Positions 12,472-15,184 of a stretch of 64,000 nt of DNA are shown here, in pieces (position 1 is the first letter of the stretch; each line of letters opens with the position of its first letter). The stretch spans positions 2,294,001 to 2,358,000 of the forward strand of contig NZ_AP025465.1 of the NCBI RefSeq assembly GCF_024347355.1, given 5' to 3'. The position numbers were made by a program, and so were the translations under genes. The notes under the pieces are model-generated. The model was given only the letters and a program-made list of their open reading frames with translations, did not search any database and was not told the DNA's origin. This DNA comes from Vibrio chagasii (lineage in GTDB: Bacteria > Pseudomonadota > Gammaproteobacteria > Enterobacterales > Vibrionaceae).

Positions 12472-12510
12472 CTCGCGCTTATCACTCTTACAGAGATTCC
12501 CTACTCCTTC

Positions 12511-12537
12511 CTTCGTCATTCTAGGGAATGACGGAAG
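12511..12537. repeat. REP-like palindrome
   Basis: Imperfect inverted repeat with arms CTTCGTCATTC and GAATGACGGAAG, 40 bases after maf. It resembles the interrupted palindrome at 12715/14105 and the one near 22029, suggesting a family of short extragenic palindromes in this genome. Confidence 0.55.
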
Positions 12538-12714
12538 TTGTCTCTTGAACTTTAAAGAAAACACGATATGAAGACCATAGTAGTACCACTCAACTTTTAA
12601 AAAGGTCACTGCTGTCTCATTAATAATGCGGAAGACAGTAACCCAAAAGTTGTTCGACCGAGGTAACACGTAAACACAAGGTACTATTTTACTCGAATAG
12701 CAAAAAGTATCGTC

Positions 12715-12734
12715 ATCCCCAAGAGTGAGGGACG
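12715..12734. repeat. Left half of REP-like palindrome interrupted by the IS
   Basis: ATCCCCAA at 12715-12722 followed by GAGTGAGGGACG. Its partner arm TTGGGGAT is at 14098-14105. Removing the insertion sequence restores a hairpin with perfect 8-base arms and a loop of about 18 bases, so the element inserted inside the loop. Confidence 0.75.
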
Positions 12735-12739
12735 TATAT

Positions 12740-12987
12740 GGACTCCCCTAGTATTGCAAGGAAACGAGTAAAGGTATGCAAGTGCACGTATATTCGGTTT
12801 CTTTATGGGGAGCTACCCCGAACCTCTATGGCTTAATCCACTCAGCAAAAGTTCTTATCGAGCGTGTGGTGTATTATCACCTTCGTCCCTCTCAGAGTTT
12901 CTTTTGCTTGCTATGCTTACTCTTTACCATAATTTACTTGCTTACATGGGGGGATTGATGTCTCCCTTAAACTTATAAAATCAACTG
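12740..12987 (-). ncRNA. Probable bridge RNA / seekRNA region of the IS
   Basis: The 250-base right end downstream of the transposase has no credible protein. Read on the minus strand it contains GAGGGACGA (complement of 12883-12891), identical to the reconstructed target strand spanning the left insertion border. About 18 bases later comes CGCTCG, the reverse complement of the CGAGCG that crosses the same junction. Two short guides pairing with opposite target strands are what a target-binding loop of an IS110-family bridge RNA should show. There is also a GGGG/CCCC hairpin. The exact RNA ends are not determined. Confidence 0.65.
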
Positions 12988-14013
12988 TTAAGCGATTAAC
13001 GTCTCATTATAAGATTGATTGCTTTTCAGCATGGCACAAGCCATTCTGATCGTTTTGTTCGCAAGGGCGACAACCACTTGGTTAAACGACTTTCTTTCTA
13101 ATAAGTTTCGTATCCAGCAACTTAAGCGATCTTCTTTATCTCGGATATTCGCTACCACCGCTCTTGCTCCATGAACGACAAGAGAGCGTAAGGTTTTATC
13201 ACCTGATTTACTTATTCCGTGGTTTTTGTTCTTACCACCACTGCCAGTATGAGCCGGAACTAAACCTAAGCTCGCACTAGCTCCTCGACCATTTCTATAG
13301 GCCGAAGCGTCACCCAGACGGGAAAAAATGGCACTTGCAATCACCCAACGTACACCTCGTAAAGTGATTAATAACTGGCAAGCGGGTATTTGCTTTGCAA
13401 AGTCTATAAGTTGCGATTCAACTCTCTCGATAGGCTCATCAAGATTTAGTAGCTGAGCATGTAATTCTCGGAGAACGAATCGAGTTGTCGGTGTTAATTC
13501 ATTCTCCATATCTTCGATAACGAAAGGGAGTAGTTCTCGCAGTTTATTGGCTCCTTGTGGGAAGGTAATGCCACATTCCGCTGCATAGCCACGGATACGT
13601 AGACTTACTGCCGTGCGTTGTTTTATATAGCTTTGTCTTAAACTCAGCAGCATTGCGATATCTTGCTGCTCCGGTGTTTTTACAGGTACAGCATGAATAT
13701 CGGAGCGTAAGGAAGCTTCGTAAATCGCGATAGCATCATTAGCATCGTTCTTATTACCACTGCGATACGGCTTCACTTTTTGGGGAGGTATCATTTTGAC
13801 GGTATGACCACGGCTTTGAAACGTTCGTCCCCAATAATGAGATGCTGCACAGGCCTCTATGCAAATGGTTGCGTCAGGGTGTTGGCTGATGACCGTTAGC
13901 ATTTTCTTTTTAGACATAGCTTGGTTCAACTTACGCTTGCCATGGCGGTTAAATACCGCGACTTGAAAGACGGATTTGGCTAAATCAATCGAGATTGTGT
14001 TAAATTTATTCAT
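12988..14013 (-). CDS. IS110 family transposase
   Basis: A 341-residue DEDD recombinase, full length for the family. The N-terminal RuvC-like DEDD domain begins FNTISIDLAKSVFQVAVF with the first Asp, and continues with TICIEACAASHYWG (Glu) and KNDANDAIAIYEA with the Asp pair. The C-terminal Transposase_20 domain contains LITLRGVRWVIASAIFSRLGD, RNGRGASASLGLVPAHTGSGG with the nucleophile-type serine, and the GDKTLRSLVVHGARAV segment. No frameshift or internal stop is seen, so the element may be active. The enzyme excises and inserts the element under direction of an element-encoded RNA. Confidence 0.93.
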   Translation of the reverse strand: MNKFNTISIDLAKSVFQVAVFNRHGKRKLNQAMSKKKMLTVISQHPDATICIEACAASHYWGRTFQSRGHTVKMIPPQKVKPYRSGNKNDANDAIAIYEASLRSDIHAVPVKTPEQQDIAMLLSLRQSYIKQRTAVSLRIRGYAAECGITFPQGANKLRELLPFVIEDMENELTPTTRFVLRELHAQLLNLDEPIERVESQLIDFAKQIPACQLLITLRGVRWVIASAIFSRLGDASAYRNGRGASASLGLVPAHTGSGGKNKNHGISKSGDKTLRSLVVHGARAVVANIRDKEDRLSCWIRNLLERKSFNQVVVALANKTIRMACAMLKSNQSYNETLIA

Positions 14014-14090
14014 GGTATGGGCTCCTGTTTTTGGTTCGCACCTGTAACTTTAGCTGACGCTGTCAGTTGAGGTGGGGAGTCCATACCATT

Positions 14091-14105
14091 GAGCGAGTTG
14101 GGGAT
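14091..14105. repeat. Right half of the interrupted REP-like palindrome
   Basis: GAGCGAG followed by TTGGGGAT at 14098-14105, the exact complement of ATCCCCAA at 12715-12722 on the other side of the insertion sequence. Confidence 0.72.
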
Positions 14106-14128
14106 CTCTTGTAACAAGCACAAACAAA

Positions 14129-14155
14129 AAAGGTTGACGAAATTCGTCAACCTTT
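14129..14155. terminator. Bidirectional intrinsic terminator downstream of rluC
   Basis: Arms AAAGGTTGACGA / TCGTCAACCTTT with a 3-base loop, flanked by an A run on the left and T on the right. It probably ended both the maf and rluC transcripts before the insertion separated it from maf. Confidence 0.8.
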
Positions 14156-14202
14156 CTCAATTATAGATACTGAAGAACAAATTTAGAGACACTCTATACC
14201 TT

Positions 14203-14237
<35 letters not shown>

Positions 14238-14239
14238 TC

Positions 14240-15184
14240 TTAAAGCTTACGTAAACCAGTCAGCGCTTTTTCTAATCGCGCTTCCATCGGAGCTGAGATA
14301 TCCATCTTCTCTTCGCTACCCGGATGCGTAAACTTGATGTTTGCTGCATGTAGGAACAAACGATCCAAACCAACCTTTCCCGTGTAAGCATCAAAACGAC
14401 GATCACCATATCGGTCATCCCATGCTATTGGGTGGCCCGTATATTGAGTGTGTACACGAATTTGGTGCGTTCGACCGGTAATCGGGCTCGCTTGAATCAG
14501 TGTCGCATCTTTGAACTTCTCTAAAACCTTAAAACGGGTTTCCGAGGCTTTACCATTCGGGTTAACACGAACGATACTGTTTACTTCATTTTTCAGCAGA
14601 GGCGCGTTCACCACCTTACAGCTGTTCTTCCACTCGCCCATCACTAAAGCGAAATAGTATTTTTGAACCGTTTTTTCACGGAATTGCGCTTGAAGATGTC
14701 TTAGCGCCGAGCGCTTCTTAGCAACAAGCAAGATGCCAGACGTATCTCTATCGATACGGTGCACTAACTCGAGAAAGCGAGCTTCAGGACGAAGTGCACG
14801 CAATGCTTCAATTGCGCCAAACTTAAGTCCACTACCGCCATGAACGGCAGTGCCCGATGGTTTATTTAGAATCAGCATGTGATCATCTTCATAAATGATG
14901 CACTGTTCCAATTCTGAAACCTTGTTGAGTTTCGTGCTTGGCACGTTCTCTTCGACTTTCTCTTCAATGGTAACTGGCGGGATACGAACTAAATCACCAG
15001 CTTTTAGTTTGTACTCAGCCTTGATGCGTTTTTTGTTTACGCGGACTTCGCCTTTACGCACGATTCGGTAAATCATGCTTTTCGGGATGTTTTTTAATTG
15101 GTTGCGTAAGAAGTTATCAATACGCTGACCAGCCATATCTTCGTCAATATCGACAAATTGGACTTGGGTTCTAATTTCGCTCAT
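14240..15184 (-). CDS. rluC: 23S rRNA pseudouridine(955/2504/2580) synthase
   Basis: A 314-residue enzyme that makes three pseudouridines in 23S rRNA. An N-terminal S4 domain (about residues 15-75: RIDNFLRNQLKNIPKSMIYR and onward) is followed by a RluA-type catalytic domain with the HRIDRDTSGILLVAKK motif carrying the catalytic aspartate, and RTHQIRVHTQYTGHPIAWDDRYGD. Length fits E. coli RluC (319). It is divergent from rne, the same arrangement as in E. coli. Confidence 0.95.
   Translation of the reverse strand: MSEIRTQVQFVDIDEDMAGQRIDNFLRNQLKNIPKSMIYRIVRKGEVRVNKKRIKAEYKLKAGDLVRIPPVTIEEKVEENVPSTKLNKVSELEQCIIYEDDHMLILNKPSGTAVHGGSGLKFGAIEALRALRPEARFLELVHRIDRDTSGILLVAKKRSALRHLQAQFREKTVQKYYFALVMGEWKNSCKVVNAPLLKNEVNSIVRVNPNGKASETRFKVLEKFKDATLIQASPITGRTHQIRVHTQYTGHPIAWDDRYGDRRFDAYTGKVGLDRLFLHAANIKFTHPGSEEKMDISAPMEARLEKALTGLRKL

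Follow-up and report, generated by a model that had tools for sequence, protein, structure and literature searches.

An IS1111-group insertion sequence in a REP-like hairpin loop of Vibrio chagasii, with a predicted RNA carrying guides to its target and to its own ends

Insertion sequences of the IS1111 group are described in published accounts as bearing, outside their inverted repeats, extensions of 7 bases on the left and 3 bases on the right, and these accounts already report S or T at the SG motif of the transposase as well as a junction promoter. As set out in the relevant sections of Siddiquee 2024 (PMC11187229), the guides of IS1111 elements occur in the order top-strand complement first and bottom-strand match second, which is the opposite of the order in IS110. 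The passages of Durrant 2024 (PMC11208160) on this group predicted, by inspecting examples, that donor pairing occurs in IS1111 elements. A search of the open-access literature, with subscription journals and preprints outside its scope, returned no paper on the Vibrio case presented here.

The DNA analysed (the window) is a 64,000-nucleotide stretch of V. chagasii contig NZ_AP025465.1, and all positions are those of this stretch. It contains an insertion sequence of the IS1111 group with an open transposase frame, on the minus strand at 12735-14091. Because one G (plus strand) is common to both junctions, its length under the 7+3-base rule published for such ends is 1357 bp, a delimitation based on the ends and on the empty site. 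An earlier note, made from the letters alone, had placed it at 12735-14090 and was thus off by one base, its other coordinates being correct. Repeat search identified perfect subterminal inverted repeats of 12 bp (TATGGACTCCCC at 12737-12748 and GGGGAGTCCATA at 14074-14085, both on the plus strand). On the minus strand, the 7-base left-end extension CAATGGT (14085-14091), whose first base is common with the target, and the 3-base right-end extension ATA (12735-12737) surround an 11-base repeat, giving ends of the IS1111 type. The DEDD transposase/recombinase (12988-14013, minus strand; 341 amino acids) matches the IS110-family models PF01548 and PF02371 of Pfam and NF033542 of NCBIfam, and carries GLVPAHTGSGG, the GL-P----S(t)G motif of the IS1111 group. 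Among 10 aligned relatives D10, E53 and D90 are invariant and D93 is nearly so. In one aligned transposase (L071, a single copy in genome G166) the final D of the DEDD set is replaced by H (KNDANH), D being found in the other nine. At the SG-motif residue, the position of the IS621 nucleophile, the 39 motif matches comprise 29 S, 8 T, 1 G and 1 N; threonine replaces serine in L022, L048, L073 and L075-L078.

Downstream of the transposase, as the earlier note had indicated, lies a non-coding end, 253 bases in length (12735-12987, minus strand), which harbors the predicted seekRNA/bridge RNA. Searching 100 relatives at the DNA level gave only short partial matches to the element, in 9 of them, and matches at E <= 1e-80 were found in 9 of 329 genomes of the family. 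At the strict E <= 1e-90 none of 369 genomes of the class gave a match, a count that carries no weight on absence. The best match in the plasmid search was 56% identical, a single-sequence search of solved structures returned only a chance-level match (E 0.031), and the anti-phage library contained no match. Five Rfam matches up to E 5 were obtained for 12500-14400, all under gathering scores and unrelated, with no matching family.

The element splits a target of which one half, stem arm ATCCCCAA followed by loop part GAGTGAGGGACG, is at 12715-12734 and the other, loop part AGCGAG followed by stem arm TTGGGGAT, at 14092-14105 (both on the plus strand). When joined with one shared base, the flanks form a REP-like hairpin with stem ATCCCCAA/TTGGGGAT and an 18-base loop. 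The joined flanks align without gaps with the orthologous empty site of G001, the nearest genome compared (L135; 146/153 bases identical), and L136, L138 and L139 are likewise continuous across the junction. Insertion into the hairpin loop is exact, with one shared base and without target duplication. A second REP-like hairpin lies in the same intergenic region (12493-12535; GATTCCCTA...TAGGGAATG); it is conserved in relatives, and its loop has no match to the guides described below. On the other side, a perfect 13-bp hairpin (AAAGGTTGACGAA/TTCGTCAACCTTT, 14129-14155), with a weak sub-threshold match to Rfam STnc390, is probably a bidirectional terminator, and the heptamer TCGTATC forms a tandem array of 5.1 copies at 14202-14237; arrays of this unit recur in G001, G006, G007, G010, G012 and G019.

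Two stretches of the non-coding end can be read against this target. The right target guide GAGGGACGA (12883-12891, minus strand; TCGTCCCTC on the plus strand) pairs with the target TCGTCCCTC, in the transposase sense, and the left target guide CGCTCG (12859-12864, minus strand; CGAGCG on the plus strand), separated from it by 18 bases, is the same as the left half of the target and pairs with the other strand. Since the first pairs with TCGTCCCTC and the second repeats the left half, the guides overlap at the insertion point. Both guides and their strands had been proposed in the earlier note; their positions hold, and the family-wide match of guide and target supports them. Its comparison to the target loop of IS110 stands as to one guide per strand; the order is instead that of IS1111 (right, top-strand guide first), the reverse of IS110. 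For the window element alone the match is only moderately improbable, as an unregistered scan of the non-coding end gave 4 of 3000 random window sites an equal or higher score, and it is the family that makes it secure. Those four sites are what would speak for a match arising by chance because the non-coding end is A+T-rich, a reading contradicted by the family-wide permutation and by independent copies, and to which we give practically no credence.

The genome G313 has eight places with the window's non-coding end, seven of them with both ends; one that repeats the flanks of L070 (L124) and one without the left end (L123) were kept outside the following count, which covers six distinct sites of G313 plus the window. 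In all seven the right guide is paired over 9/9 positions (five with one G.U); the left guide pairs at between 5 and 7 of its 7 positions, several copies carrying one or two mismatches in the left-guide match. At L123, with one end only, the flank GTGCCTC has one mismatch to the right guide. Several transposase frames are broken among the G313 copies L118-L123, with the non-coding end still 96-98% identical to that of the window, and the broken copies look as if they were served by one intact copy. A relative about 60% identical is present in G342 in 16 copies with the non-coding end, all 16 inserted at the foot of a different hairpin, in the sequence TATG|C[A/G]TTCCCACG. Its right guide GTGGGAATG pairs at 9/9 positions with CRTTCCCAC in every copy (two with one wobble), while its left guide matches TGC beside the core and is mismatched further out at two of seven positions, again in 16/16 copies. 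Two copies in G222 match their guides likewise. The earlier note had named copies of the same IS at non-matching sites as evidence that would count against it; none was seen among the copies found.

The hairpin itself was assessed over 28 joined sites. RNA-parameter folds gave a minimum-energy hairpin across the insertion point in some sites only (L119, L120, L122, L081 and L048, by reading), the window's minimum-energy form being without one, after which straddling stems were counted directly. A stem of 8-9 bp, with a loop of 17-19 bases, straddles the insertion point in 7/7 sites (the window and six in G313); letter shuffles reached equal stem length in 15/500 cases for the window and in 11 to 43/500 for the six G313 sites. 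Together with the G001 empty site, these counts bear out the loop of a REP-like hairpin as the target, as the earlier note had it. The constancy of this stem would also fit a transposase that itself reads the REP-like hairpin, as a fold or as a protein-read motif, with the guide match being incidental. This is very unlikely in our view, given that the G342 relative, with a correspondingly different guide, inserts next to another hairpin instead of within it, that the sites of L071 and L074 show no straddling stem above shuffles, and that guide and target covary over 24 elements.

To evaluate this covariation, 24 of 49 extracted elements entered a permutation test after same-lineage copies and incomplete elements had been dropped. 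In each of the 24, all with both flanks, the non-coding end was scored by its best combined right and left guide for the target of every element in the set. The mean score was 12.23 for own targets and 10.44 for reassigned targets (sd 0.17, maximum 11.31), and none of 100,000 permutations reached the own-target mean, odds that overstate independence as the elements are related. In 14 of the 24 elements (two tied) the own target came first, and in 19 it was among the top two. Low ranks were obtained for L031 (rank 7), a far relative that fails on its right half, and for L026 (rank 8 of 24), scored at the inner of two tandem right ends. These right ends of L026 are 22 bases apart, about 273-330 bases after the stop codon, and its outer flank CGGACATT pairs with its guide GATGTCCG at 7/8 positions (by eye).

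The predicted RNA structure was examined in an alignment of eight near relatives, including one without the left end that was used here only (L049). The named structure comprises 22 pairs and is paired in 99.4% of 176 cells, with 8 of the 22 pairs changed on both sides; its covariation score was 0.354 as compared to 0.156 in shuffles (0/500 reaching it), and slid versions of the structure were paired in at most 55.7%. Further pair types were not above shuffles (277/500 reaching the count). The window RNA alone folds with a z of -2.35, 3/200 shuffles being as stable. Within this structure the predicted target-binding loop (12845-12907, minus strand) is closed by the stem GCAAAAG (12901-12907)/CTTTTGC (12845-12851), in which 3/7 pairs changed on both sides, and a hairpin between the two target guides (GGTG/CACC; 12868-12881, minus strand) shows compensatory changes in relatives.

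A second loop, similar in plan to the target loop, follows downstream of it and consists of a stretch antisense to the left-end extension, then a helix of the form GGNN/NNCC, and AATATA or GATATA followed by C or T. For the window, on the minus strand, these are the putative right donor guide GCCATAG (12826-12832), antisense to the left-end extension, of which CCAT pairs here and the first base forms a G.T wobble; the helix GGTT (12821-12824)/AACC (12796-12799), which encloses a GGGG/CCCC hairpin (12796-12824 overall); and the putative left donor guide ATATACG (12787-12793), the same as the right end ATATA plus the shared base C. Counts for donor guides, helix and core were made on 26 elements, the above 24 plus L035 and L041. 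The helix is paired in 102/104 cells (0/20,000 shuffles). Donor guide position 1 pairs with left-end position 7 in 23/26 elements (0/20,000 shuffles) and position 2 with left-end position 6 in 26/26 (3/20,000), with A, C, G and T all among the partners used, and the two other positions of the four tested show no covariation (12/26 and 11/26). The left donor core letter is the first flank base (C or T) in 25/26 elements, a match for which ancestry may account in part as only two letters occur. An unregistered donor test was weaker (27/100,000). On these data the second loop is predicted to carry guides to both donor ends, as in the IS110 bridge RNA, a feature absent from the earlier note. The long subterminal repeats, the two positions devoid of covariation, the weaker unregistered test and the pairing of only CCAT plus one wobble in the window would all suit an element in which only the target half is RNA-guided, the protein reading the ends via the subterminal inverted repeats and the donor match reflecting shared ancestry; an 82-nt RNA was sufficient for ISEc11 movement in the corresponding section of Siddiquee 2024 (PMC11187229). 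We regard this alternative as improbable, albeit deserving some weight, since covariation with the left end is seen at the registered positions 1 and 2, the core letter tracks C or T in nearly all elements, and IS1111 donor pairing is predicted in the cited part of Durrant 2024 (PMC11208160).

With both loops taken as guides, the element very probably moves by an RNA-guided DEDD recombinase using a four-guide predicted RNA, a reading drawn from sequence and from analogy with its described relatives. Observed directly in the genomes compared are the ends, the empty site, the guide-target match, and covariation in both sets of guides (target and donor) and in the helices. Joining of the ends in a circle would create a putative promoter that is complete only in this form, with TTGCAA (12754-12759, minus strand) as a possible -35 box, then 17 bases, then TACAAT. 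Among the 26 elements, the sequence at the -10 position is TACAAT in 14, TATAAT in 6, TATGAT in 4 and a different one in 2; TTG lies at a spacing of 17 bases in 16, is closer by one base in 7 and is absent in 3. The transcript would span the transposase and the downstream bridge/seek RNA, circle and expression being taken from published relatives. One loop of this RNA would read the target through the two guides overlapping at the insertion point (GAGGGACGA on the right, CGCTCG on the left), and the other the ends of the element itself, with CCAT... as the right and ATATACG as the left donor guide. In a protein-RNA complex of the kind published for relatives, the recombinase would then exchange strands at the shared C/G, leading to insertion in one orientation into the loop of the REP-like hairpin.

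We also determined how frequently each target occurs in its host. The G342 target was counted 71 times in G342 itself and 40 times in G252, the reversed-pattern control giving 0 in each of them, with at most 5 per genome in the other 146 of 148 genomes and 0 in G313; a matching element was not found in G252 despite its 40 target sites. The window target pattern occurs 29 times in G313 (8 being the guide inside IS copies) versus 3 for the control, 21 versus 6 in G001, and 2 versus 9 in G342. With up to 2 mismatches allowed, G222 contains 16 occurrences of its own target against 1 for the control, and the other six genomes contain between 0 and 3 each. In G166 its own target is not clearly enriched (12 versus 5 for the control, up to 3 mismatches). 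The element's target is hence a multicopy host repeat in three of the four hosts tested, which is the less ordinary part of the finding. Guide adaptation need not be implied, as the same is expected if elements persist only where targets are plentiful. We are close to undecided, leaning slightly against, on the broader proposal that this marine IS1111 clade carries a four-guide code whose target half has been repeatedly rewritten to follow the host's dominant extragenic repeat, element and REP family co-evolving as a matched pair. If true, a record of retargeting would be readable from genomes alone, and if guides follow host repeats, intragenomic REP families would constitute a safe-harbour niche driving guide evolution. 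The targeting rule, for its part, is legible in a single insertion and can afterwards be verified in relatives, and this yields naturally matched guide-target-donor sets, tolerated mismatches included, for IS1111 recombinases.

Overall, the element fits the published seekRNA/bridge-RNA kind, for which REP targeting and natural retargeting are already in print. As far as the sections of Siddiquee 2024 (PMC11187229) describe ISEc11, ISKpn4, ISPst6 and ISPa11, it shares with these IS1111 seekRNA elements the transposase type, subterminal repeats, 7+3 extensions, downstream non-coding region, guide order and absence of target duplication. ISPa11 likewise targets REP sequences, the window element differing in REP family and host, and donor-guide covariation, followed here over 26 elements, is not discussed in those sections. 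With the IS110/IS621 bridge RNA, as presented in the corresponding parts of Durrant 2024 (PMC11208160) and Hiraizumi 2024 (PMC11208158), it has in common the two loops and four guides, a core common to left and right guides, and REP targeting, which IS621 also shows. It differs from them in its RNA, which lies downstream in the right end, in the reversed guide order and in the long subterminal repeats; the upstream RNA and leading left target guide of IS110 proper (IS621-like) are not found in it. The natural retargeting of ISEc11/ISXne4, as reported in the pertinent section of Siddiquee 2024 (PMC11187229), similarly involves related transposases whose guides and targets have both changed and still match, whereas here one clade (transposases 52-98% identical) displays several host-specific targets and was subjected to a permutation test.
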